Shown here one piece after another: positions 6,826-20,909 of a stretch of DNA of 64,000 bases; position 1 is the stretch's first letter, and each line of letters begins with the position of its first letter. Position numbers and translations under genes: made by a program. Below the pieces are notes generated by a model, which was not told the DNA's origin, searched no databases, and saw nothing but the letters and a program-made list of their open reading frames with translations. Origin of the DNA: Synechococcus sp. UW69 (GTDB lineage: Bacteria > Cyanobacteriota > Cyanobacteriia > PCC-6307 > Cyanobiaceae). The stretch lies in the NCBI RefSeq assembly GCF_900474185.1, contig NZ_UCNW01000009.1:372001-436000 (forward strand), in the 5' to 3' direction.

Positions 6826-8325
6826 ATGTCTTACCCTCTCCAACAAAGATTATTTGGTTTTTCAGATGATCGTAATTCATTAGATAGTGATTCTCTCAGC
6901 AATAAGTATTCATGTAAATTAAATCCATATGATAATTACCTATCTTATTCATCTGCAACAGCTACGAATGTACAACTTGGTCAGTTTAATTACCTTAACA
7001 CTCTTTTGCAGCAACTTGAAGACTGTGGTGGTTCAACTATTGATATGTGGCAACATCTACGAGATAGAATAAGATCTATTTTTGATTTAGATGATGATGT
7101 TGATATAATCTTTGGCTCATCTGGAACAGACATTGAAATGATTGCAACACTCTATGGCATCTCAACAAATAAAAAATGTGCAAATATAGTATCTCTGCCA
7201 GAAGAAATAGGATCTGGCTCAAGGCATGCCTCTAAATTGTCTCACTTTTGTAATTATGATAATCATGGAACTTCTGTTGCTAAAGGGGCAAGACTTTCCG
7301 GTTTCGAATCAGTAGACCTTTTCTCGTATACATCTGGAACAAAGATAAACTCTTTGAATAGTCAAATTTGTAATGAAAATGAACTCTTGTCGTTAGTATC
7401 GGAATTAATTCAAGATGACTATCATGTACAAATTCACCTAATTTATGGTAGCAAATTGGGTAGAGTTTACCCTTCACTCTCAGTAGTCAACCTTTTAGAG
7501 CAACGATATCCTGGTAAAATTGATGTAATTGTAGATGCATGTCAATTTAGACTTAATCATCAATGCATCAATGAATGGTTATCTATGGGTAGAATAATAC
7601 TACTTTCAGGGTCAAAGTTTTTTGAAGGTGTAACATTTTCTGGAATAATGCTTTTGCCTGCAATTATGCGAGATAGAATAAATGATTATAAATCGGCGCT
7701 ACCAGATTCCTTAAACCAGTACTTTTCGAGGGTCTGTTTTCCTACACGGTTGACAAAATTTGACTCAATTCATCATTCTCCGAATCATGATAGTTTGTTT
7801 TTACGGCTTGAGTCTTTTATGTACAACGCTGAGAGGTTTGCAGGTATTAAACAGCATAGGTTAACAGAAGTCATAAACCTCTTCTGTAAAAGATGTGATT
7901 CACTTTTTAAAAATAATTCCCAACTAATATGCAAGAAAGTCAATATGCAGTTTAGCCATTCCTATGAAAATGACATCCTTCTCAGCACCATTTTTCCTTT
8001 TATTTTATTTTATAAGGGAAGACCTTTGAGTCAAGAAGAGTGTCGTAAAATTTACAGCCTACTAATGACTGACATTTCCCCCCATTTAGATAATAATGAC
8101 TCAGAATTTAAGCAAATTCTGAGTCTTAATATTCATCTTTGTCAGCCAGTAACATTTGAATATAATAATAGCAGTCAAACCGCAATGAGAATTGCTTTGG
8201 GTGCTAATAGCCTAATAGATTTATCTGGCTGCATCTCAAGTAAAATTCAAGATAAGTTAAACTCAGATATTTCAAAAATTGAAATGAAAATGCTATTTAT
8301 TATAGACAAGATATTAAAAATTTGA
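6826..8325 (+). CDS. PLP-dependent (fold type I) enzyme of unknown substrate
   Basis: 499 residues. The fold-type-I PLP signature is visible: GSSGTDIE at 98-105 in the phosphate-binding position, DAC at 237-239 for the aspartate that pairs with the pyridine nitrogen, and SGSKFFEGVTFSG at 261-273, whose Lys264 would form the Schiff base. The ordering is closest to class V aminotransferases and cysteine-desulfurase-like enzymes, but the chain is longer and differs from the DegT-type sugar aminotransferases in the same island. The final stop codon directly abuts the stop of hisF on the other strand (TGATCA). The reaction is not assignable from sequence. Confidence 0.7.
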   Translation: MSYPLQQRLFGFSDDRNSLDSDSLSNKYSCKLNPYDNYLSYSSATATNVQLGQFNYLNTLLQQLEDCGGSTIDMWQHLRDRIRSIFDLDDDVDIIFGSSGTDIEMIATLYGISTNKKCANIVSLPEEIGSGSRHASKLSHFCNYDNHGTSVAKGARLSGFESVDLFSYTSGTKINSLNSQICNENELLSLVSELIQDDYHVQIHLIYGSKLGRVYPSLSVVNLLEQRYPGKIDVIVDACQFRLNHQCINEWLSMGRIILLSGSKFFEGVTFSGIMLLPAIMRDRINDYKSALPDSLNQYFSRVCFPTRLTKFDSIHHSPNHDSLFLRLESFMYNAERFAGIKQHRLTEVINLFCKRCDSLFKNNSQLICKKVNMQFSHSYENDILLSTIFPFILFYKGRPLSQEECRKIYSLLMTDISPHLDNNDSEFKQILSLNIHLCQPVTFEYNNSSQTAMRIALGANSLIDLSGCISSKIQDKLNSDISKIEMKMLFIIDKILKI

Positions 8326-9084
8326 TCATCTTCTTACATTGTACCCATTAGAATTTAAGGTTTGCTTGATTGTACATGGTGTATGTTCTGTATAGCAAAA
8401 AATTGAGCTAGCTGCTATTCCTGAAATTAGATTAGCTTTTGCAGCATCTAAAAAATCGATAGGACTGCCAGCACCACAGCTTAGGACTATAGGGGTATCT
8501 AGACCTAAAAAATGCTGAATTAGTGAAAAATTAATTCCTTTCATAGAGCCATCCTTATCTACATCTGTAAGAACTAGCTCGCCAACTGGATTTTTTTCTA
8601 AGTATCTGACAACTTCATCAATACTCATAGATGAATAAGATTTAGATCTATAGTCCCATAAACGTAGGGAGGAAGAAGCCTCATCGTATTTAAAATCTAA
8701 CTTAAGAGCAACACTTTGGAATCCAATTGAATTAGAAATTTCTTGGACACGTTCTGGATCATCTAAAAATATACCTGTTAAAATAATTTTATCAGCACCT
8801 CGTTGTATGTATTGTTCTGCATGTTTAACATTCTTAATTCCTCCACCTACTGCTACAGGAATATCGCATTGCTTATGAATCAATTGGAATATTCTTTGAG
8901 ATATTAATTCATTTTTTACTGTTGAATTAATATCTATTATATATATTTCATCGGCTTGACGAGAAACTTGAAGCTTTAAATGTTGAGAAAGACTTCCAAT
9001 TGTCCTCCATGGACTAAAATGTTGACTAGTTACAACGTTAGAGCCATTCGATAAAAGGGCTAAAGGAATAACACGAAATTTCAT
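8326..9084 (-). CDS. hisF: HisF-like ammonia-channel synthase subunit, probably for sugar amidination
   Basis: 252 residues with the (beta/alpha)8 HisF pattern: AVGGGIKN phosphate-binding loop, Asp in VALKLDFK (equivalent of Asp130) and in LTDVDKDGSMKG (equivalent of Asp176), and a C-terminal NVRR. At the N-terminus, where histidine-pathway HisF has CLDVKDG with catalytic Asp11, this protein has LALLSNG, so that Asp is replaced by Leu. It overlaps hisH by four bases, and hisH overlaps the amidotransferase gene. The same trio occurs in Pseudomonas O-antigen (WbpG-HisH2-HisF2) and the Campylobacter flagellar glycan locus (PseA with HisH/HisF). It most likely helps deliver ammonia to the sugar enzyme rather than making histidine. 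Confidence 0.88.
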   Translation of the reverse strand: MKFRVIPLALLSNGSNVVTSQHFSPWRTIGSLSQHLKLQVSRQADEIYIIDINSTVKNELISQRIFQLIHKQCDIPVAVGGGIKNVKHAEQYIQRGADKIILTGIFLDDPERVQEISNSIGFQSVALKLDFKYDEASSSLRLWDYRSKSYSSMSIDEVVRYLEKNPVGELVLTDVDKDGSMKGINFSLIQHFLGLDTPIVLSCGAGSPIDFLDAAKANLISGIAASSIFCYTEHTPCTIKQTLNSNGYNVRR

Positions 9085-9701
9085 GAGTTGTTAATTATGG
9101 AGTGCAAGAGTTTGAAGCCGGCAGGCCCACTTTTCTCTGGATGAAACTGTAAACCAAAAGTCATTCTTGATTTTACAATCGCAGTTATTTCATGGTGATT
9201 TTCAGCTAATACACTAGCTATAATTAGATTTTTATTGGAAGGACAACACTCATAACTATGAACAAAATAAAAGTCTTTTGCCTTCACCAAATCATCAAAT
9301 ATCTGATCACCAGAACTGGTATTTAAGCTCATTTCATTCCAACCTAGATGGGGAATTCTTGAAATCGAATCTTTTTTTAATTTAGTCACGGATCCTTCAA
9401 TAATTGATAAACCTTCGATATTTGGCGATTCTTCACTATGCTGAAAGAACAGTTGCATGCCTAGACAAATTCCAATAATTTTATTTCCTCTCAGAAAATG
9501 ATTTACGATTTTCTTAGTAAATTCCTGCTGCTGAAGGAATTTCATTCCTTCAGCAAATGTTCCAACACCAGGTATTATAATCACGTCTTCATCTTGCAAA
9601 GATACATCACTTGTAAATGGCAAATAGTCGTGATTTGATTTGTGCATATATGCATATATACTTTGAAGGTTGCAGAAATTAAAGGGAACTATGTAAATCA
9701 T
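9081..9701 (-). CDS. hisH: HisH-like glutamine amidotransferase (glutaminase subunit)
   Basis: 206-residue class I glutaminase. The catalytic triad is intact: Cys79 in GICLGMQLF, and His187 and Glu189 in GLQFHPEKSG. It hydrolyses glutamine and passes ammonia through its HisF partner. Both flanking genes overlap it by exactly four bases (9081-9084 and 9698-9701), so the three proteins are probably made in fixed proportion. In this setting the ammonia is expected to serve the PseA/WbpG-type enzyme encoded immediately upstream, not imidazole-glycerol phosphate formation. Confidence 0.9.
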   Translation of the reverse strand: MIYIVPFNFCNLQSIYAYMHKSNHDYLPFTSDVSLQDEDVIIIPGVGTFAEGMKFLQQQEFTKKIVNHFLRGNKIIGICLGMQLFFQHSEESPNIEGLSIIEGSVTKLKKDSISRIPHLGWNEMSLNTSSGDQIFDDLVKAKDFYFVHSYECCPSNKNLIIASVLAENHHEITAIVKSRMTFGLQFHPEKSGPAGFKLLHSIINNS

Positions 9702-10849
9702 AGAGAAATAGGATGCTTTAGTACTGGAGATTTGTGCTTAAGAACAAGATTTGAGTTAGCATCAGTTTCAAACAGTGAATAATTAGTAAAGTCATCACAA
9801 ATTTTGTCGAACTCTTTAACAGACATGTCAATTGTAGAAAGTATATCTTCTAAATCCTTGTCAAGATACTTAAATGGATATATTCCGTCGTTTCCTTCAA
9901 TAAGTTTTATTGCCTCTTCTCGAGTTAATAAACCTCGTCTAATCCAATTACAGGCCATGTCTGTCGAACGGCTAAATCCATATTTAAGAAATTTAAGGTA
10001 ATCATGAATTCCATGAAAGTAATTATCTAGATTTTCAGAGTTACTTAATGTACCTAGTATGTTATTTGAGCTTACAGTAAAACCTTGAGCTTGTGCTATA
10101 AACTGATTAGTCATCCCATTCCATGGGAAATAATCATCGAGAAAAATCCCTTTGGTATTAATATTCTCAACTTTTGTTGATTCTGGATATTCGTATAGAG
10201 CTAAGTGGCACGGATTAAGATCAAGACAATCAATTAAATCAGTAACTCTCAGACCATTAAACCCACAGTTTTCTTCCAAATATTGTCTGTCAAATGTTAC
10301 ACCAAAATTTTCATCTTCAATACGCCCCGCACCATATTCTCTCACAGAATTTTCACCCCAAATAATAATTGGTATTTCAAACATTACAGAGGCATGAATT
10401 GGTATTGTAAATATAAGAACATGCTCAGGCCACTGAATGTCTCCAACAGTTTCCAATGCATAACGATTTATTTTTTTTCTAACATCCTTATTCACCGTAA
10501 ACTCAATGTGATCAACACCCATATTCTTACAGTTTTCTAAATTTTGTCTACCTAAATCTGTCAGTAAATCTGTCGGAGCTGTTACACATAGTGGATTAAG
10601 CCCTAATTGCTTGATTTTCCATACTTGATAAGTGCTATCTTTCCCACCAGAAACAGGGATAATACAATCATAATTAGGATTTACTTTGTTAGATTTGATT
10701 AAATCGATTAAATCGGATTGTTTGTTTTGAGTATAAAAGTTATTAGATTGTTTTCTTTCATACCATTGGCAAGCTGAACAGATACCTTCAGAGTTAAATC
10801 TGAGACTTGGCTTTGTTTCAGGATACAAACACCTTGTACAATATTTCAT
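9698..10849 (-). CDS. pseA: N-acetyl sugar amidotransferase (PseA/WbpG family)
   Basis: 383 residues with the family's opening MKYCTRCLYPETKP and paired cysteines (Cys4/Cys7 and Cys24/Cys27), presumably a zinc site, then the PP-loop SGGKDS at 67-72 that binds ATP. The family activates an N-acetyl group with ATP and attacks it with ammonia to give an acetamidino group, as in acetamidino-pseudaminic acid in Campylobacter and the ManNAc3NAmA of Pseudomonas O-antigen. It has no glutaminase domain, which fits the hisH and hisF genes directly downstream. It overlaps both neighbours by four bases. The substrate here is inferred to be pseudaminic acid or its CMP form. Confidence 0.9.
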   Translation of the reverse strand: MKYCTRCLYPETKPSLRFNSEGICSACQWYERKQSNNFYTQNKQSDLIDLIKSNKVNPNYDCIIPVSGGKDSTYQVWKIKQLGLNPLCVTAPTDLLTDLGRQNLENCKNMGVDHIEFTVNKDVRKKINRYALETVGDIQWPEHVLIFTIPIHASVMFEIPIIIWGENSVREYGAGRIEDENFGVTFDRQYLEENCGFNGLRVTDLIDCLDLNPCHLALYEYPESTKVENINTKGIFLDDYFPWNGMTNQFIAQAQGFTVSSNNILGTLSNSENLDNYFHGIHDYLKFLKYGFSRSTDMACNWIRRGLLTREEAIKLIEGNDGIYPFKYLDKDLEDILSTIDMSVKEFDKICDDFTNYSLFETDANSNLVLKHKSPVLKHPISL

Positions 10850-11802
10850 TTTACTCTTGATACAACTTGGATTTTATAGCCTAGATTGTTTTCTAAAATT
10901 ATATCGGATGAGAATAAATCATTTATCTTCGAGTGTGAGGTGTATTGTGGATTATAAGGATTGTCATAGTTCATATAATTAGTGATTGCAAAGCTGTCAT
11001 CTATAACAGTTCGAATTTTTAGAATTTCGAAACCACAAAATTCAAGCGTCTCCTGAATACCACGTATTCCAAATAAAGTTAGATGTTCAATGCCATCAAA
11101 CATATTACAATGTTCTCGGAGAACTCTCGCTGATAGAGAGTCACAAGTCGGAATTTGTATAAACAAAAGACCTCCAGGCTTTAAATTAGCTTTAATATTT
11201 TTAATATATGCGATTGGGTCTGGAATGTGTTCTAGTACATCCCATAAAGTAATTACATCAAAACTCCTATTCACTTCACCTATTGATGAGCCAATAATAT
11301 TTATTCCTTGCGATAACGCAAAATTACTTTCTTTAATATTTGGCTCAATACCAAATGTTTTGGCTCTAATAGTTGAAACATCGGAAAATACTTTTAAAAA
11401 TAATCCAGTGCTACAACCTATATCAAGCACGTCTATTTGAGACTGATTACAAAATTCTTCTATCATAGTAGAGCCGGCAGTAAATATGTTCTTATAAAAA
11501 TCTATCTCTTTTTCATGCCAGCTCTGGGTATTTGATGGGTAATTAATGTAAAATTTGTTGAGTATATCTGAGACAAAGTAATTGTTTAAATATACTATAT
11601 TGCAGTCATTGCAATGAGAGTATTGACCACCATTTTTTGAAAAAAGTGTGTTATTTTTCTTTCCACATTTCGGACATCCAATATCAACTCTATCTACCTC
11701 ACAATTAATTGAGGATAAAAATTCAGAAAAATATTTTTCGAATTCATCGACTTCTCTTTGCCTTGAAGCATGCAATGCTTTTTGATCTTGTGTGCTTTTC
11801 AA
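10846..11802 (-). CDS. SAM-dependent methyltransferase with N-terminal zinc ribbon
   Basis: 318 residues. A zinc ribbon formed by CPKC at 43-46 and CNDC at 64-67 precedes a class I methyltransferase domain with motif I DIGCSTGLF at 127-135, and LWDVLEHIPDP and LKPGGLLFIQIP further on. This layout is common in sugar C- and O-methyltransferases of deoxysugar pathways. It is embedded in the pse operon, 58 bases after the asparagine-synthetase-like gene and overlapping the amidotransferase gene by four bases. Known methylated nonulosonates make sugar methylation likely, but the acceptor position is not predictable. Confidence 0.8.
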   Translation of the reverse strand: MKSTQDQKALHASRQREVDEFEKYFSEFLSSINCEVDRVDIGCPKCGKKNNTLFSKNGGQYSHCNDCNIVYLNNYFVSDILNKFYINYPSNTQSWHEKEIDFYKNIFTAGSTMIEEFCNQSQIDVLDIGCSTGLFLKVFSDVSTIRAKTFGIEPNIKESNFALSQGINIIGSSIGEVNRSFDVITLWDVLEHIPDPIAYIKNIKANLKPGGLLFIQIPTCDSLSARVLREHCNMFDGIEHLTLFGIRGIQETLEFCGFEILKIRTVIDDSFAITNYMNYDNPYNPQYTSHSKINDLFSSDIILENNLGYKIQVVSRVK

Positions 11803-11860
11803 CAGATTACTTATAGCCTAATTACTATAGCACATTTCATCAAGATTTATTGCTCGCTGT

Positions 11861-13696
11861 TTAAATTTCTTTGTGTGCTGGAAGGATTGACAAGGTGCTA
11901 ATAATTTTATCTATATATCGGACCAGTTTTAGCCCCCTTGTTGTTGCCAGAACCTCTTTAAATTTATCTTTTTCAATTAGGCCACTTCGAAATCCTGCAC
12001 TGATGAGAGGGTTGTATTTTTCTAGAATAAAGTTGATAATATCTTCGTTCAACATCGGATGTTTTCTCCCCAGCTCTGAATCAATTCGTCTGCGCATACT
12101 TGAATTTTTTGCCTCTTCTTTTAATATTTCAGACTGTTTGTATAGTTGCTCAAAACTCACTCCGCTTAAATTTTTGAATGCATCGAAGAGTAGTTTTTTT
12201 GAGTCACTAGTTAAGGTATCGTCAATCCGTATGCTCAAGAATAGTTTTGCAATTGCCGAAGTTAGCAAAGGCTCGCATGGACTTTTCTGTCTAGCGATCG
12301 AATAATTTCTAAAACCAGTTTGTGTTCTTGTGTGGTGCAACATAAAAGTAAATATTTTGAGAATCTTTTGAGCTATAGTCGAATTATAGTTTCTTTTGTC
12401 TAGAGATTGAATCATTTTTGAGCTAGAAATTTTATATAATATAAAATTGAGATTGGCATAGTGCAAAAAATCATCTCTCATGATTAACAAATTTGACGAT
12501 TTTTGTTTATTTCCAATAAAGCGTTCGTTGCACACTCTTGTTGCCAGATATGAGTAGCAGCCAAGTAAGTCATTTACCTTATCTGCAAGGTAGCTGTTTT
12601 CAATTTTCAACGTATACTGAATTTTGCATTGAAAAGTTTCTCTCAAATTTTTTAAATATTCAAAATTGTTTAAGTAATCTCTCTTATGTAATGAGCTGTA
12701 CTTATTGTAATCTAAGTGATGAAAAATCTGAAGATTGGTTGGGCCAGTTGTTCCTCCAATTGAAGTATGAAATCCAAAGAATGGGACTGCGGCTTGATCC
12801 ATATTTAATACCGATTGCGACATATGTGTTCTTCCTCTCAAAGCATCCCAATTCTTTTTCGACACATTTAGAGAATAGTTGCCATTACTCGTAATAGAAG
12901 CCAATCCATACTCTGGTACTCCACAAAAATTAAGGTCTAATTGTTTTGCCATAAATTCCGACTGAATTGCTTCATGTACATATGGATTATGTCTAAAGTT
13001 GACACAACAAATGGAATCCTTTTTATTGCTATCTAAATTACTTATTGCCGCTGCTACCACAGAAGAGTCAATTCCGGAAGAAAGCATAAGTGTTTGCGGT
13101 AATGAATACTTGTTATCAATAACCTCATTTAATGATCCAATTAATCTCTCACAAAAAGCATTCATATGCTTTTTTTCGTTATACGAATCCTCGGCAAAGT
13201 TACTAATCTCAAGGTGCCAGAACTCACTTAAGCAAGTTTGCCCCTTGTAAATATGAATCATTCCAGGGCATAGTATATTCTGGAAGTATTTATCTTCTTG
13301 GAAGCTACTCATACTGTACAAAGATCGATTAGAAGGTTTGATTGCATCTTTGATCACTTTTTGATTCATACTATTGGTATACTCTGTAAGACTTTTTTCT
13401 GATTTTGATAGATTGACTGAGTTATTTTTTGGCATAACATAAGTTATGCTTCCGCCAACACTAGATCCAATTACTACTTTTTTGTCTACAAGCATTATGG
13501 CTATTGTATCCCATTCGAGTAGTTCACATAGTTTTGTAAATGAGCTTAGGTCGTCATCATTCCATTCATCCTGAAGGTAGTCTATTGCCTTTTTTTCTTT
13601 GCATTCAATTTGATATGTTTGCAGGATGATATTATTTTTATGATAGAGAGTAATGCTGCTTTCTTTGTCTTGAATGACAACTTTTTGATTCTGCAT
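11861..13696 (-). CDS. Asparagine-synthetase-like amide ligase lacking the glutaminase nucleophile
   Basis: 611 residues. The C-terminal two thirds carry the AsnB-type synthetase domain, with PP-loop LSSGIDSS near 205-212. The first 165 residues retain a vague outline of the Ntn glutaminase domain (WDTIAIMLVDKKVVIGSS, then a GMIHIYKG turn) but begin MQNQ with no Cys at position 2, so this domain cannot hydrolyse glutamine in the usual way. Related proteins in polysaccharide clusters (WbpS-like) amidate uronic or nonulosonic acid carboxyls. The gene is two bases downstream of pseF. Its ammonia could come from HisH/HisF of the same operon or from free ammonium; this is inference. Confidence 0.75.
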   Translation of the reverse strand: MQNQKVVIQDKESSITLYHKNNIILQTYQIECKEKKAIDYLQDEWNDDDLSSFTKLCELLEWDTIAIMLVDKKVVIGSSVGGSITYVMPKNNSVNLSKSEKSLTEYTNSMNQKVIKDAIKPSNRSLYSMSSFQEDKYFQNILCPGMIHIYKGQTCLSEFWHLEISNFAEDSYNEKKHMNAFCERLIGSLNEVIDNKYSLPQTLMLSSGIDSSVVAAAISNLDSNKKDSICCVNFRHNPYVHEAIQSEFMAKQLDLNFCGVPEYGLASITSNGNYSLNVSKKNWDALRGRTHMSQSVLNMDQAAVPFFGFHTSIGGTTGPTNLQIFHHLDYNKYSSLHKRDYLNNFEYLKNLRETFQCKIQYTLKIENSYLADKVNDLLGCYSYLATRVCNERFIGNKQKSSNLLIMRDDFLHYANLNFILYKISSSKMIQSLDKRNYNSTIAQKILKIFTFMLHHTRTQTGFRNYSIARQKSPCEPLLTSAIAKLFLSIRIDDTLTSDSKKLLFDAFKNLSGVSFEQLYKQSEILKEEAKNSSMRRRIDSELGRKHPMLNEDIINFILEKYNPLISAGFRSGLIEKDKFKEVLATTRGLKLVRYIDKIISTLSILPAHKEI

Positions 13697-13698
13697 CT

Positions 13699-14427
13699 TT
13701 ATTTGTGAAGTGAAAAATGTTTAAATGATTCATTTGTTTGACCGAGGCTTTTGGCCATTATCTCTGCTCTTATCCAATCCTCTTCATTATCAATGTCTTG
13801 CACTCTATAATTAGGAATAATTAATGGTGTAGAACCATCAAATAGATTTTCTTTCTTTAACCACGTATCTTTTTCTGCCCAGTAAAATTGACCCGCATCA
13901 TGGTAACAGCTCTGTAGATCTTGGCTTCTAGTATTAAAATACTCTGGAAACATCATCTCAGCTTCTTTGTTGTTATTGATTCTAAACGATCTTTCGACAG
14001 GATATGAAAAATTTGTAGCCGGAAAAACCACATTATTAAATTGATTTTGTTGCAGCATCTCCTTGGCAATCCTTATATCCTCCGGTATTGCCAGGGCTGC
14101 AGTTGGATAGATACAACAAATCAAATTGTAATCTTTATTTGTAGAATCAAGATAATCTATCGCATGGTTTATCACTTCTCGTGTAGTTGAATGATCGTCA
14201 GAGAAATGCTTTGGTCTGACGAATGGCACATTAATACCTAATGATTTTGAATATTCAGAAATTTCTTCGCAATCAGTACTTACGATTATTTCATCAAAAC
14301 ACATTGATTCAAAAGCTGCCTTCACTGACCAATAGATTATTGGCATTCCACAAAATTCTTTAATATTTTTCTTGGGAATTCTTTTACTTCCTCCTCTGGC
14401 AGGTAGTATTGCAATACTTTGTTTCAT
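13699..14427 (-). CDS. pseF: Pseudaminic acid cytidylyltransferase
   Basis: 242 residues of the CMP-sugar synthetase family: nucleotide-binding ILPARGGSKRIPKKNIK near the start, the VSTDCEEI segment, and CYHDAGQFYWAE in the second half, a stretch characteristic of PseF rather than NeuA or KdsB. It activates pseudaminic acid with CTP. An upstream in-frame ATG at 14439 exists, but the ATG at 14427 gives an ATGA overlap with the preceding stop and removes four atypical residues, so it is preferred. Third gene after pseC in the operon. Confidence 0.9.
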   Translation of the reverse strand: MKQSIAILPARGGSKRIPKKNIKEFCGMPIIYWSVKAAFESMCFDEIIVSTDCEEISEYSKSLGINVPFVRPKHFSDDHSTTREVINHAIDYLDSTNKDYNLICCIYPTAALAIPEDIRIAKEMLQQNQFNNVVFPATNFSYPVERSFRINNNKEAEMMFPEYFNTRSQDLQSCYHDAGQFYWAEKDTWLKKENLFDGSTPLIIPNYRVQDIDNEEDWIRAEIMAKSLGQTNESFKHFSLHK

Positions 14428-15692
14428 AGGAATGCCCATACCTTTTGGAATGCCTCAATCAGCTGATTAATTTCACTATTCTCAAACTCATACATACATA
14501 GCTGAAGCCCTAGAAATTCTTCGTCATGATATCTTTCAGCTACTGGACATATACCCTTCTTGTAATCAATATCACTCTCGTTCCATGGAAATCCATTAGT
14601 ACCATAAGCAATTTTATTTTGAAAGATTGGTAAAAGATGAATATTGGCATACCCCTTCATTAATCCTTGTACACCTTCCGCTTCCAATGCTTTATAGATC
14701 CAATTCCTGTCTCTCTTTAATTTATCTAGTTCTAATAGTAATCCATATACATAGTAAACATGCGTTTGTTCCTTATCTATATACGGAAGCTTTAACCCTT
14801 TTAAGTTTGCTAGTCCTACATTCAGTTTTCCTGCTATCTCTTGTCTTCTAATTACTATTGATGAAAGTTTTTTTAACTGCTCTCTAGCAATTGCTGCTTC
14901 AATTTCACCAAGACGAAAATTATAACCTATGATATTTTTCAGCTCATGTGGATTGTTCGACTCAATAACTGCCTCACCATGATTTCTGATTAACCTTGTT
15001 CTTTCTGCTAATTTATCGTCATTTGTTATGATTAATCCACCTTCTCCACAATGGATATGTTTGTGATAATTTAAACTAAATCCTCCAATATCTGAATTTG
15101 TCCCTGCATAAGAGTCACCACTGATCGCACCTGGTGATTGGGCAGTATCTGTGATCAGGGTTATGTTGTTTTTATCGGTTATCTCCCTAATCCTTTTTAT
15201 GTTGCAACTCTGCCCAAAAATATCTACAGCTATTACAGCTTTTGTACGTTTAGTTATTTTTTCTTCAATTGATCTTGGATCAATATTAAATGTTTGAGGA
15301 TCTATATCTGCGAATACCGGGATTGCATTCCAATGTAATACGCATGTCGCTGTAGCGGCCATAGTCCAAGTAGGCACTATTATTTCATCCCCAGGCTCAA
15401 TACCAATTGCTCCGACACAAGCGATTAATCCCGATGTCCATGAATTTACTGCGATCACATTCCTTACTCTAAAATAATCTTTTGCGTCTTCTTCAAGTTG
15501 AATAATTTCTTCGCCACCCAAGAAATATTGACCTTTACCGCCAACAAAAGCTGACAAACATCCAGAATTTAAGACTCTGTTTGCTGCTTGTACCTCTTCA
15601 CTCCCAATTGAGTTGTACTTTTTAAAGGGCGCCTCAATTAATTTTGAACCTCCCTCGCATGCCAGAGGGTTGGCTGTTCGGTGCACTTGTTT
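14424..15692 (-). CDS. DegT/DnrJ/EryC1/StrS family sugar aminotransferase
   Basis: 422 residues. The family fold is clear: VNSWTSGLIACVGAIGIEPGDEIIVPTWT in the cofactor region, DTAQSPGA with the pyridine-binding Asp, and SLNYHKHIHCGEGG whose Lys forms the internal aldimine. It is a second sugar aminotransferase beside PseC, so the island probably makes an additional amino sugar or an alternative one. The open frame extends to 15770, but the ATG at 15692 places the expected N-terminus (GGSKLIEAPFKKYNSIG) correctly. Even so it overlaps the preceding oxidoreductase gene by 59 bases. Its neighbour's dehydrogenase activity would supply a keto-sugar substrate. Confidence 0.85.
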   Translation of the reverse strand, partial: KQVHRTANPLACEGGSKLIEAPFKKYNSIGSEEVQAANRVLNSGCLSAFVGGKGQYFLGGEEIIQLEEDAKDYFRVRNVIAVNSWTSGLIACVGAIGIEPGDEIIVPTWTMAATATCVLHWNAIPVFADIDPQTFNIDPRSIEEKITKRTKAVIAVDIFGQSCNIKRIREITDKNNITLITDTAQSPGAISGDSYAGTNSDIGGFSLNYHKHIHCGEGGLIITNDDKLAERTRLIRNHGEAVIESNNPHELKNIIGYNFRLGEIEAAIAREQLKKLSSIVIRRQEIAGKLNVGLANLKGLKLPYIDKEQTHVYYVYGLLLELDKLKRDRNWIYKALEAEGVQGLMKGYANIHLLPIFQNKIAYGTNGFPWNESDIDYKKGICPVAERYHDEEFLGLQLCMYEFENSEINQLIEAFQKVWAFL

Positions 15693-16686
15693 CATCAATA
15701 AGGTGCATTGTCGACATAGCTTCTTCAAGTGTACACGATATACCTTGCGAAGTCTTCTCAAGAATTTCATTTATAATTGTATCCAGTACATAATATTGAT
15801 AGTGAGATATATCAGTCTCAATTATTTTGGGTTTGAGTTTCAGCGCGTAGTACCCATCTTCTTTTAATTCATAGTCCCAAATTGTGATGGTCTCTCCACC
15901 CTCTTCCCACACGATTCTCCCATTTTCAAACCATAAATCAACTATCCCAGCTTTTATTGGCAACGATCCAAAGCTTTGTACTAGTATATGTCCCATTGGA
16001 TTATCTATGGGCATCAATAATAGCGTTCTTTCTTCATCATAATCTATTAGGCAGTTATCGTTCTTGATTTTAATCATGCATTTTAATGAGCCTACCCAAT
16101 ATTCCGCAAGATTCACAAAATGTGAGCCGTTGGTTCTTATCCCTTTCCCGTACTTGATTGTCCCATTTATAAACTTTCCCAACTTCATTTTGCTTATAAA
16201 TTCTTTTGTTTGTATCACGGCTGGTAAGTATCTCCGTATGTAATTTACCCCTACATGTTTAACGTTGCTTTTATTAATTATATTGGATATTCTTCTCGAT
16301 TCTGCGAACGATATGCCAATTGGTTTCTCCAGCAGTAAGCCCTTCGGTTCAAATCTATCTAGTATCTCTTTTATTGTCTTAAGCTGATATTCAGTAGGTA
16401 CGCATATTATTATTAAATCAAAATCTTTTTGCCCGAATGCTTTGGCACATTCCTCAATATGACAATATGCTTTCAATAGATATTTTTTTTCAAAGTCACT
16501 TCTTGCTTCCACTGATGGGTCTACTGCAGCCTTTAATTCTGTGTTTCTGTGCGTAAATACCGCACTAGCATGTGTTCTGATTGAAGAAGTGATCTCGTGG
16601 TTATTTTCAATCAATGACTCATGTAAATCATACTTGCAGCCTATATTTCCAAGCCCAACAAGTAGTACACTTAATTTTCCGTTCAT
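15634..16686 (-). CDS. Gfo/Idh/MocA family oxidoreductase
   Basis: 350 residues with an N-terminal Rossmann domain (VLLVGLGNIGCKYD at 7-20) and the family's catalytic EKP motif in GLLLEKPIGISF. The C-terminal half has the open-sheet substrate domain pattern. Members oxidise or reduce sugar hydroxyls using NAD(P). It is sandwiched between pseC (four-base overlap) and the DegT aminotransferase gene (59-base overlap). Dehydrogenase plus aminotransferase is the standard way to place an amino group on a sugar ring, for example at C3 of a UDP-uronic acid. The exact substrate is unknown. Confidence 0.85.
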   Translation of the reverse strand: MNGKLSVLLVGLGNIGCKYDLHESLIENNHEITSSIRTHASAVFTHRNTELKAAVDPSVEARSDFEKKYLLKAYCHIEECAKAFGQKDFDLIIICVPTEYQLKTIKEILDRFEPKGLLLEKPIGISFAESRRISNIINKSNVKHVGVNYIRRYLPAVIQTKEFISKMKLGKFINGTIKYGKGIRTNGSHFVNLAEYWVGSLKCMIKIKNDNCLIDYDEERTLLLMPIDNPMGHILVQSFGSLPIKAGIVDLWFENGRIVWEEGGETITIWDYELKEDGYYALKLKPKIIETDISHYQYYVLDTIINEILEKTSQGISCTLEEAMSTMHLIDETSAPNSQPSGMRGRFKIN

Positions 16687-17849
16687 ATAGTTCCTAGACC
16701 TGTTCCAAGTACTTGCACTACTTTTTTTTGGGAATCTCCAGTTAAGCCTGGATATAATGGAATACTAAAACTGGTTGTTGAATATGTTTCTGCATTAGGA
16801 AAATCTCCTTCTTGGAACCCAAGTTTTCTGTAAAAGGGTTGTAGATGAATTGGCCAATAGTGAAGTTGTACTCCAATTCCATTTTCTCTCATGTATTTAA
16901 ATAGCTTTGAATGATTTCTCTTTGTGATATTCATTATCTGAATAATTGCAAGGTGGTAACAGCTTTTGCTGTATATTGGTTCCGTGATTATTCTTATCTC
17001 CTTGATGTCTGTTATTAGATCTTTGTAAACTTGGATCTGTCTCCTTCGTTCTCGTATTATCTTTTGAAGCCTTTCTAATTGGCTCAAGCCTAAAGAAGCT
17101 TGTAAATCATTCATTCTATAGTTGAAACCAACTGACTGCATTTCATAGTACCAATCACCTGGACTTTCGAATTCAAAATTACTTCTTTTTATACCATGTG
17201 ATCTTATTGTTGATAATTTGTTTTTAATGTCTACGTTGTTTGTGACAGCACACCCGCCTTCTCCAGATGTTATTATCTTTACGGGATGAAAACTAAATAC
17301 TGTTATATCGCTATATCTGCAATTCCCAACAGGTTCACCATCATATGTACTACCAATCGCATGGCTTGCATCTTCGATTATGTGAAATCCATATATCTCT
17401 GACAATTCTGACATCTCACGCATGTCGCAGGATGAGCCACCCAAATGCACTGGTATTATGACTTTTGGAAGTTTATTAATTTTACTAGCATTTTCTAACT
17501 TAACACCTAGTTCTTTAAGTGAAATCAACCCAGTATTTATATCGCAATCTATAAAATCTACATCAGCTCCACAATAGATTGCACAATTTGCGCTTGCAAC
17601 AAAACTGATCGTACTTGTCCATACAATATCTCCTTTTTTTACCCCTAATGCTATATTTGCTGCGTGAAGTGCGCTTGTTGCACTATTAAATGTCACACCA
17701 TATTTGCTCCCACAAGTCTCTGCAATTCCTCTTTCAAACATTTCGGCTCGAGGCCCTTGAGTTATTGTTTCACTCTTTAAGGCTTGGACGACATATTCGA
17801 TATCTTGGTCAGTAATGGCATGCTTGCCATATGGAATCCACTCGTTCAT
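16683..17849 (-). CDS. pseC: UDP-4-amino-4,6-dideoxy-N-acetyl-beta-L-altrosamine transaminase
   Basis: 388 residues, second enzyme of the pseudaminic acid pathway. It is a DegT-family aminotransferase whose PLP lysine lies in FSFHPVKIITSGEGG, the form typical of PseC. The N-terminus IPYGKHAITDQDIEYV and the middle PVHLGGSSCDM also match that subfamily. It converts the 4-keto product of PseB into the 4-amino sugar. It is the first gene of a nine-gene minus-strand run ending at hisF. It has a good Shine-Dalgarno (AAAGGA, complement of 17858-17863) and a TATAAT box 21 bases upstream of the ATG. Confidence 0.93.
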   Translation of the reverse strand: MNEWIPYGKHAITDQDIEYVVQALKSETITQGPRAEMFERGIAETCGSKYGVTFNSATSALHAANIALGVKKGDIVWTSTISFVASANCAIYCGADVDFIDCDINTGLISLKELGVKLENASKINKLPKVIIPVHLGGSSCDMREMSELSEIYGFHIIEDASHAIGSTYDGEPVGNCRYSDITVFSFHPVKIITSGEGGCAVTNNVDIKNKLSTIRSHGIKRSNFEFESPGDWYYEMQSVGFNYRMNDLQASLGLSQLERLQKIIRERRRQIQVYKDLITDIKEIRIITEPIYSKSCYHLAIIQIMNITKRNHSKLFKYMRENGIGVQLHYWPIHLQPFYRKLGFQEGDFPNAETYSTTSFSIPLYPGLTGDSQKKVVQVLGTGLGTI

Positions 17850-17877
17850 AATTAGAATCCTTTCAGCTTATTATAAT
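17850..17877 (-). promoter_or_regulatory. Compact divergent promoter region of the pse operon
   Basis: Only 26 bases separate the start codons of pseC (minus) and the GNAT gene (plus). Positions 17870-17877 read ATTATAAT, a palindrome that gives a perfect TATAAT on both strands. On the minus strand the box is followed by 20 bases including the Shine-Dalgarno AAAGGA before the ATG, a convincing arrangement. I see no good -35. On the plus strand the box overlaps the ATG, so it cannot serve the start at 17876 and that gene's promoter must lie inside pseC. Confidence 0.5.
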
Positions 17878-18406
17878 GTCTTTCAGCCTCGAAACGCCAC
17901 GGCTGTTAATCCGCTCTTTTTCTTGTGCTGATATTTCAGAAACATATCTTTCTTGGCTTAATGACCGACAACTTATGAGGTATAGTAATCAGAGGTTTTA
18001 TACACATACTCGCGAGTCAGCAATTAACTATATTCGTTCCTTCTCAAATTCTCCTAATTTATTTCTTGCTATTACTTTGAAATCAAGTGAGCAATTGATA
18101 GGATCTCTCACTATTTATAAGCAACCAAATCATGGCACTGTTAATGTTGGTTTATTAATAGGTATTGACTCTACTTATGGTACCGGATATGGCTCTGAAG
18201 CTTGGGCCTCAGTTATTTCATTTCTTAAATCAGATCCACATATACGAAAAATTTGCGGCGGAACTCTTCGTCCAAATCTTGCCATGGTTAGAATTATGGA
18301 AAAATCAGGTATGTCACTTGAGTCCGTCCGCAAGCATCATGAATTAGTTGATAGTATTCCCTATGACCTCCTCCATTACTCCCTTTTCACTAGCAACAAA
18401 CAATAA
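17876..18406 (+). CDS. GNAT acetyltransferase, PseH-like candidate
   Basis: 176 residues of the RimJ/RimL type GNAT group: ETPRLLIRSF at 6-15, GLLIGIDSTYGTGYGSEAWASVI with the acetyl-CoA loop in the middle, and TLRPNLAMVRIMEKSGM near the end. It is divergent from pseC and could supply the PseH step (4-N-acetylation of the UDP-altrosamine), although the fusion at 1-1177 also carries a GNAT domain, so one of the two may act at another position. Its 3' end overlaps the next gene by about 44 bases in another frame. Confidence 0.75.
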   Translation: MSFSLETPRLLIRSFSCADISETYLSWLNDRQLMRYSNQRFYTHTRESAINYIRSFSNSPNLFLAITLKSSEQLIGSLTIYKQPNHGTVNVGLLIGIDSTYGTGYGSEAWASVISFLKSDPHIRKICGGTLRPNLAMVRIMEKSGMSLESVRKHHELVDSIPYDLLHYSLFTSNKQ

Positions 18407-19310
18407 TTATAATCGTATTCTTGTTTGTGCACATGATGCTGGTTCCGCCCATCTGATTTTACATTGGATTAAACACTTTCGTCAGAAGTGCCTTTTTGTT
18501 CTCTCAGGCCCAGCTTTCGATATTTTTAGTGATTATTTTGGTTCGATACTTAATCATCAGTTTGATACCATACTTGAAACTTGTGACTGTGTTATTTCCG
18601 GTACTAGTTGGTCTTCAGATATTGAAGACATTGTAAGGCGTTTTGCAAAGAAGCACAACATATTTTCTATTGCAGTAGTTGATCATTGGGTTAATTATGT
18701 TGAACGTTTTACCTTCTCAGGTTCTATTGTATTGCCCGATCTGTTGTGGGTCTCAGATAATTACGCTTTCGAGATTTCTACTAGGTTGTTTCCAAATCTT
18801 GCAATCATATTAGTTGAAAATTCATGGCTTGTGCATACACAAAATCATGTTTTATGTGAACGTATTAAACGTTTTTCTCAACCTTTTGTTGATAAGTTTC
18901 GAATTATTTATCTGCTAGAACCGATTCGCTCTAATTGGAATTTGTTAGATGTTTGTCCGGAATTCTATACTTTAGATTACTTCACTTCAAAAATCCAACC
19001 TCTTATTAGTCTAGGTTATATTCCGTCTAACACTGAAATTGAAATTATATTTAGACCTCATCCGGCCCAAAATATTGACTTCTACAATCCATTTTTTGCT
19101 TCAATGTCTAGTGATTTTTTAATCACTATTGATTCTAATTCTAATTTATATCAATCGCTTGTTATCGCAGATCTTGTCTGTGGTCTTAATTCACAAGCAT
19201 TAGTTGTTGCAATGGCTTGCAATATTCAATCCATGTCTGTTCTTCCACCGGTCGCACCCACTTGCATTCTCCCTCATTCTCAATTACTACACCTTAAATC
19301 CTTAGTTTAA
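18363..19310 (+). CDS. HP-motif protein, candidate nonulosonate transferase
   Basis: 315 residues from the ATG at 18363 (a second ATG at 18348 would add five). I do not recognise a named family. Visible: a Rossmann-like opening RILVCAHDAGSAH, FRPHPA around 230-235, and then NLYQSLVIADLVCGLNSQALVVAMA, the same order (His-Pro motif, then a nucleotide-pocket segment) as the protein at 5533-6807 and as GT-B enzymes using CMP-sugars. This and the location beside pseB and pseC make it a candidate pseudaminic acid transferase; it could also be a non-catalytic carrier or kinase. Its stop abuts the stop of pseB with no base between. Confidence 0.6.
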   Translation: MTSSITPFSLATNNNYNRILVCAHDAGSAHLILHWIKHFRQKCLFVLSGPAFDIFSDYFGSILNHQFDTILETCDCVISGTSWSSDIEDIVRRFAKKHNIFSIAVVDHWVNYVERFTFSGSIVLPDLLWVSDNYAFEISTRLFPNLAIILVENSWLVHTQNHVLCERIKRFSQPFVDKFRIIYLLEPIRSNWNLLDVCPEFYTLDYFTSKIQPLISLGYIPSNTEIEIIFRPHPAQNIDFYNPFFASMSSDFLITIDSNSNLYQSLVIADLVCGLNSQALVVAMACNIQSMSVLPPVAPTCILPHSQLLHLKSLV

Positions 19311-20312
19311 TTAGATATCTATGTTTTTACATTCATTCTTTATCAGTTCCTTAAGGCTTTCTACACTAAGAAATTCGGAGTTTGTGCCTGAGTTGTATGA
19401 TCCATTCTCTAGGCTAAATTTTTTGAAGGTTATGCCTGCATCAATATATTTCTGCTCATATGTTTTGTCTGATGGCAGGATTGCATAATATTTACCAATA
19501 TCAATAGTGTTTGGTGCGTCAGATTCAGTTATCATTTCTTCGTGCAGTTTTTCTCCTGGTCGAATTCCAATTATATCTTTTTCGCAAGTCTCATCTATAG
19601 CATCTGCTACGTCTATTACCCTGTAACTTGGTATTTTAGGTACGAATATCTCACCACCTAGTGCATTGTTCATCGCCCATTCGACCATTTTTACTCCGTC
19701 CGCAAGAGTGATGTTGAATCTTGTCATCTTTATATCAGTTATTGGTAATTTACCCGATTTTTTCATATTCAAAAAGTATGGAATTACGGAACCCCTTGAG
19801 CCCATGACATTTCCGTATCTTACAACGCTAAATAAGATTTCTTTATTGCCTTTGATATTATTAGCCGCTACAAACAACTTGTCTGAACACAATTTTGTCG
19901 CTCCGTACAGATTTATTGGTGCTGCTGCTTTATCAGTGCTTAGTGCAATTACTTTTTTGACAGATGTTGCTAGGCAGGCTTCTATTAGGTTGTTCGCGCC
20001 TAGTACATTTGTCTTGATGAATTCCATTGGATTGTATTCAGCAGCAGGTACTTGCTTAAGTGCTGCTGCATGAACTACTACATCAATATTTTCCAGAGCC
20101 TCTCTCAGTCTTGACTTATCTCTTATATCCCCTAAAAAGTATCTTAGTGATGGATATTTTTGGATTGAGAATGTTTGCTGTAATTCCCACTGCTTTAATT
20201 CATCCCTGCTGTAAATTACTATCCTTTCGTATAGTTTAGATTCCAATATTTTTTTTAGAAATGCTTTCCCAAAACTTCCCGTCCCACCTGTGATTAATAT
20301 ACTCTTGGCCAT
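19311..20312 (-). CDS. pseB: UDP-N-acetylglucosamine 4,6-dehydratase (inverting)
   Basis: 333 residues, first enzyme of pseudaminic acid synthesis. It is a short-chain dehydrogenase fold with NAD(P)-binding ITGGTGSFGKAF at 6-17 and the active-site stretch STDKAAAPINLYGATK, containing the Asp-Lys pair and Tyr of the PseB subfamily. PGEKLHEEMI near the C-terminus is also typical. It dehydrates and epimerises UDP-GlcNAc. It is transcribed from the AT-rich spacer next to tRNA-Gly and lies apart from the pseC operon, with two plus-strand genes between. AT-rich like the island. Confidence 0.95.
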   Translation of the reverse strand: MAKSILITGGTGSFGKAFLKKILESKLYERIVIYSRDELKQWELQQTFSIQKYPSLRYFLGDIRDKSRLREALENIDVVVHAAALKQVPAAEYNPMEFIKTNVLGANNLIEACLATSVKKVIALSTDKAAAPINLYGATKLCSDKLFVAANNIKGNKEILFSVVRYGNVMGSRGSVIPYFLNMKKSGKLPITDIKMTRFNITLADGVKMVEWAMNNALGGEIFVPKIPSYRVIDVADAIDETCEKDIIGIRPGEKLHEEMITESDAPNTIDIGKYYAILPSDKTYEQKYIDAGITFKKFSLENGSYNSGTNSEFLSVESLKELIKNECKNIDI

Positions 20313-20837: not shown

Positions 20838-20909
20838 GCGGATGTAGCTCAGTGGTAGAGCATCTCCTTGCCAAGGAGAGGGTCGAGAGTTCGAATCTCT
20901 TCATCCGCT
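20838..20909 (+). tRNA. tRNA-Gly (GCC)
   Basis: 72 bases folding as a complete cloverleaf: acceptor GCGGATG pairs with CATCCGC; D arm GCTC/GAGC; anticodon stem TCTCC/GGAGA around loop TTGCCAA, giving anticodon GCC; T arm with TTCGAAT loop. No CCA is encoded. It lies at the right edge of the AT-rich island, flanked on both sides by T-rich spacer, so it may have been the insertion point; no second copy of its 3' end was noticed in the window. Confidence 0.95.

Follow-up and report, generated by a model that had tools for sequence, protein, structure and literature searches.

The window analysed here, a stretch of 64,000 nucleotides (G000:C9:372001-436000), comes from a Cyanobiaceae genome of 2.37 Mb that is Synechococcus-like by content. 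Between about 4.8 and 21 kb of the window the GC content is 33-41%, compared with about 60% on both sides, and a tRNA-Gly gene (20838-20909) lies at the right edge of this stretch, which is a surface-polysaccharide island of the pseudaminic-acid (Pse) type. Within it we found PseB, the inverting UDP-GlcNAc 4,6-dehydratase (19311-20312, minus strand; TIGR03589, 495 bits), the PseC aminotransferase (16683-17849, minus strand; TIGR03588, 492 bits) and PseF, the CMP-pseudaminate synthetase (13699-14439, minus strand; TIGR03584, 281 bits, cutoff 206). Immediately to the left of the window lie a PseI-type NeuB, a PseG-PseH-like fusion and a formyltransferase-like gene, the last two named from their own sequence only. 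The NeuB and the PseG-PseH-like fusion, together with PseB, PseC and PseF, make the Pse pathway complete.

The island also carries a module (14424-19310) composed of a second copy of a DegT-type aminotransferase (14424-15770, minus strand; PF01041, 274 bits), which has a close relative in locus L066 (507 bits), a Gfo/Idh/MocA oxidoreductase (15634-16686, minus strand; PF01408, 42.7 bits), a GNAT acetyltransferase (17876-18406, plus strand; PF13302, 73 bits) and an unnamed protein of about 320 aa (18348-19310). The module is common to two relatives, G287 (L066, 13585-17333) and G175 (L058, 4142-8363), and may place an extra amino group on the sugar. Further left, a 499-aa protein (6826-8325, plus strand) ends at base 8325 and abuts the HisF stop codon at 8326 on the opposite strand; it has no NCBIfam match and no relative among the loci compared.

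The genes between this protein and PseF had been described as one operon encoding a PseA/WbpG amidotransferase, an AsnB-like enzyme, a HisH and a HisF. Positions and strand are right, but a methyltransferase gene sits between the AsnB-like gene and the amidotransferase gene. Start/stop overlaps join the genes for HisF (8326-9084), HisH (9081-9701), the amidotransferase WbuX (9698-10849) and the methyltransferase, all on the minus strand. WbuX scores 308 bits against TIGR03573 (cutoff 203) over residues 1-351 of 383, carries the PP-loop SGGKDST and lacks a glutaminase domain, and it belongs, as had been proposed, to the WbuX/PseA/WbpG-type N-acetyl sugar amidotransferases. The HisH-type glutaminase (TIGR01855, 177.6 bits, cutoff 105.4) is likewise intact, its alignment retaining the catalytic Cys (C79) in GICLG as well as FHPE. 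The HisF is present too, with a correction to its identity. TIGR03572 is its best match of all families (165.6 bits; NF038364, 147.9; hisF, 117.4), although these scores fall under the WbuZ/HisF2 equivalog cutoffs (299.7 for TIGR03572 and 310 for NF038364), which leaves it outside the equivalogs. In the alignment with canonical HisF, the cyclase Asp of PCLD is replaced by Leu (PLAL here), a residue also lost in many WbuZ-type proteins of the comparison. The protein is thus a divergent HisF-like protein of the WbuZ/HisF2 type, and its motifs mark it as WbuZ-like and not as a histidine-pathway enzyme. Elsewhere the genome has a further HisH (C11:270498) and, for histidine, its own His_biosynth genes with full scores (HisF/HisA family), so that the HisH and HisF of the window form a second, dedicated set.

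With these family assignments and the conserved HisH Cys, the trio is a WbuX-HisH-HisF relay of an ordinary, already-known kind, as the original prediction had it. It resembles the acetamidino systems built on PseA in C. jejuni and on WbpG-HisH2-HisF2 in P. aeruginosa (WbuX-WbuZ in NCBIfam) in a WbuX above its cutoff, in the adjacent HisH and WbuZ-like HisF, and in the full Pse pathway around it. It differs from them in a HisF below the equivalog cutoffs (166 vs 300; 148 vs 310) and in the AsnB-derived orphan and methyltransferase gene located upstream of WbuX. PseA is described as a CMP-Pse5Ac7Am acetamidino-synthase, PtmG as a CMP-Leg5Am7Ac acetamidino-synthase and PtmH as an N-methyltransferase (PMC13317340), and a WbuX-HisF2-HisH set is also part of an exopolysaccharide pathway in Sphingomonas (PMC11340318).

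The SAM methyltransferase (10846-11802, minus strand; PF13489, E 2.6e-24) begins with a four-Cys, Zn-ribbon-like stretch. Relatives are encoded two genes upstream of WbuX in L035 (6786-7766; 222 bits) and adjoining WbuX in L063 (6462-7457). This recurrence of a four-Cys-headed methyltransferase near WbuX would be in keeping with an N-methylated acetamidino group, and the enzyme may be an N-methylase of that or another group.

The remaining gene of the run, AsnX (11861-13696, minus strand), is unusual and unexplained. It encodes an orphan AsnB-like protein of 611 aa, apparently derived from the AsnB family, with no glutaminase Cys and an altered synthetase loop. Its start, MQNQ, lies two bases past the PseF stop. 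Upstream of it the frame continues for only 8 codons, which brings the open frame to 619 codons, and this short extension conceals no Cys start; a truncated PseF was rejected as well. Against Pfam Asn_synthase AsnX reaches 15.8 bits, short of the cutoff of 21, and it scores 19.9 bits against TIGR01536, whose cutoff is 267. With a profile of AsnBs (73 viral, about 30 cyanobacterial), hhalign gave 63.3, whereas 60 shuffles reached 24.7 at most, and HMMER gave 21.8 bits, whereas 1000 shuffles reached 10.9 at most. By these comparisons AsnX is a real but remote AsnB relative whose kinship is limited to residues ~111-258 (12923-13366, minus strand). The pieces 1-165 and 256-611 alone gave nothing significant. 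An hhalign comparison with a small AsnB set likewise matched the PP-loop block only, with the N- and C-terminal pieces in the shuffle range. The AsnB-like label therefore holds as distant kinship, and the earlier description had missed the changes in the synthetase half.

Compared with asparagine synthetase B and the AsnB amidotransferases of sugar islands, AsnX is collinear over the linker and PP-loop (111-258), but it lacks the N-terminal Cys half, has GDGGDE replaced and is unalignable in the rest. Its matching region begins at AsnB position ~168, an offset of ~57 residues from the AsnB N-terminus; AsnX thus begins ~57 residues downstream of the N-terminal Cys nucleophile of the glutamine-hydrolysing asparagine synthetases and cannot be a glutaminase. 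Its N-terminal part had been read as an Ntn domain starting with MQNQ in place of the Cys. The start and the missing Cys are correct, but sequence comparison detects no Ntn domain in residues 1-165. The SGGxDS PP-loop of asparagine synthetases is present as SSGIDSS at 206-212, with G changed to S at the second position. The invariant AsnB loop GDGGDE aligns to GTTGPT in a weak part of the alignment, and a search of the whole protein found no GDGxDE-like motif and no K-x-G-F motif. We consider the acidic synthetase loop probably lost, with only moderate confidence because the alignment is weak there: outside 111-258 it is uncertain, and the loop could be misplaced. With this loop missing by alignment, the carboxamide formation that had been attributed to AsnX is itself doubtful.

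These losses bring up the possibility that AsnX is an AsnB paralogue without catalytic activity, whether a pseudo-enzyme, a scaffold or a gene on its way out. Consistent with this, AsnX lacks the glutaminase start as well as the acidic loop, is an orphan, and has a GC content by codon position (0.38/0.32/0.32) with a third-position signature weaker than that of its neighbours. Yet the PP-loop is retained, and weak collinear AsnB matches recur at 421-435 and ~465-510, where Met428, Ser431, Arg435 and Lys500 land on conserved AsnB positions in the alignment. The frame also remains open across 611 codons alongside the other genes of the run, and this speaks against simple decay. We regard a dead paralogue as a real possibility, although not the likely one. 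The defence library gave no match.

The single-sequence AF2 prediction of AsnX (pLDDT 35) was useless. A model from 34 AsnB alignment rows reached a pTM of 0.64 and a mean pLDDT of 57.7 and resembles TsnB9, human ASNS, and the carbapenam and beta-lactam synthetases (Z 12.6-16.6, rmsd ~5 Å), but as its alignment is AsnB itself, the model is biased and these matches indicate compatibility, not proof. The Ntn domain in residues 1-165 is weakly visible in this same biased model. With beta-lactam synthetase, carbapenam synthetase and TsnB9, the model shares an AsnB-type fold (Z 13-17, and ~13 for the beta-lactam/carbapenam synthetase type, with the bias toward AsnB), while identity is about 10%. 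Beta-lactam and carbapenam synthetases operate without a functional glutaminase, and their type is defined by an AsnB fold lacking that activity, with the amine nucleophile coming from the substrate.

We found no AsnX relatives in genome contigs, viral contigs, phages, plasmids, 295 relatives and 400 family genomes, where the survey gave generic AsnB or PP-loop matches at most. The sole two loci from the genome-contig search (L134, L135) are GMP synthases. AsnX is also absent from all 37 stretches around WbuX taken from relatives, and the full-length AsnBs near WbuX (L037, L043, L044, L056, L060, L070) all start with MC, keeping their own Cys. HisF and WbuX are fused in a single reading frame of 679 and 681 aa in G023 and G071 (L036, 8454-10493; L047, 8509-10554), next to a HisH gene of its own, and these fusions suggest WbuX as the partner of HisF. 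HisH-HisF fusions are found in G039, G046, G049, G051, G070, G109 and G144. In L055, L057, L058 and L060, WbuX has no HisH or full-length HisF inside about 9 kb, and G226 and G175 have apparently a single HisH each, presumably of the histidine pathway.

The central proposal of the original prediction was that WbuX and AsnX both draw their ammonia from HisH and HisF, leading to an acetamidino and a carboxamide group on one sugar. AsnX has no glutaminase and stands in the same gene run, and WbuX copies outnumber dedicated HisH in several relatives; nevertheless, the collections searched hold no AsnX relative, the cases of sharing involve WbuX paralogues, and the acidic synthetase loop was not found in AsnX. 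Given as well the Cys-bearing AsnBs and the HisF-WbuX fusions, a dependence of AsnX on HisH/HisF is speculative, the evidence tending the other way, and we hold this proposal to be very unlikely. AsnX could instead be a second acetamidino- or amide-forming enzyme working on free ammonia. In Tannerella forsythia, a protein with an AsnB domain has been put forward as the maker of the Pse acetamidino group (PMC6120980), but that assignment is a prediction, and although several relatives have WbuX with no HisH/HisF nearby, we find this role unlikely.

We favour, with a probability of roughly 0.6, a relay dedicated to WbuX, with AsnX as either a ligase that uses an amine or a paralogue without activity. 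HisH would hydrolyse glutamine and HisF, its cyclase site lost, would pass the ammonia on to WbuX, which would use ATP to convert an N-acetyl of CMP-Pse to an acetamidino group, possibly N-methylated afterwards by the methyltransferase. AsnX would have diverged within the AsnB family, losing its glutaminase part along with the acidic loop of the synthetase. An active AsnX would most likely couple a carboxylate to an amine at the expense of ATP, the amine being something other than ammonia from HisH, by analogy with beta-lactam and carbapenam synthetases; otherwise it would be an inactive paralogue.

One HisH/HisF for two PP-loop enzymes is, however, a recurring layout among the relatives, in which the second enzyme is a WbuX paralogue. 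In G059, G087, G250 and G287, genes with overlapping ends and the same direction encode WbuX-A, HisH, HisF and WbuX-B (L045, 7448-11313; L049, 4154-8044; L063, 7547-11312; L066, 7646-11408), and looser layouts of two WbuX with one HisH/HisF occur in G243 and G109 (L061 and L052). The WbuX-A copies form one clade and the WbuX-B copies, including a short one in G027, another, both with a support of 1.0. Identity between A and B within a locus is 26-29%, compared with 53-55% for A-A and B-B pairs across genomes; the WbuX of the window lies outside both clades (28-32% identity). WbuX outnumbers dedicated HisH, counted genome-wide minus one set aside for histidine, in G109, G250, G287, G058 and G243, and one HisH/HisF can therefore evidently serve more than one PP-loop enzyme. 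The window likewise has one HisH/HisF and two PP-loop enzymes without a glutaminase domain, but its second enzyme is an AsnB relative, and the idea of one ammonia source for two PP-loop enzymes fits the two-WbuX loci better than the window. The broader view that HisH/HisF is an interchangeable ammonia supply, used by two WbuX paralogues in several cyanobacteria and by AsnX here to give two nitrogen modifications per nonulosonic acid, seems to us highly improbable.

The four overlapping operons make a cleaner test ground for shared ammonia than the window. Should HisH/HisF be able to supply two or more sugar amidotransferases, patterns of nonulosonic-acid amidation could evolve by the addition of PP-loop enzymes, with no need for new glutaminases.
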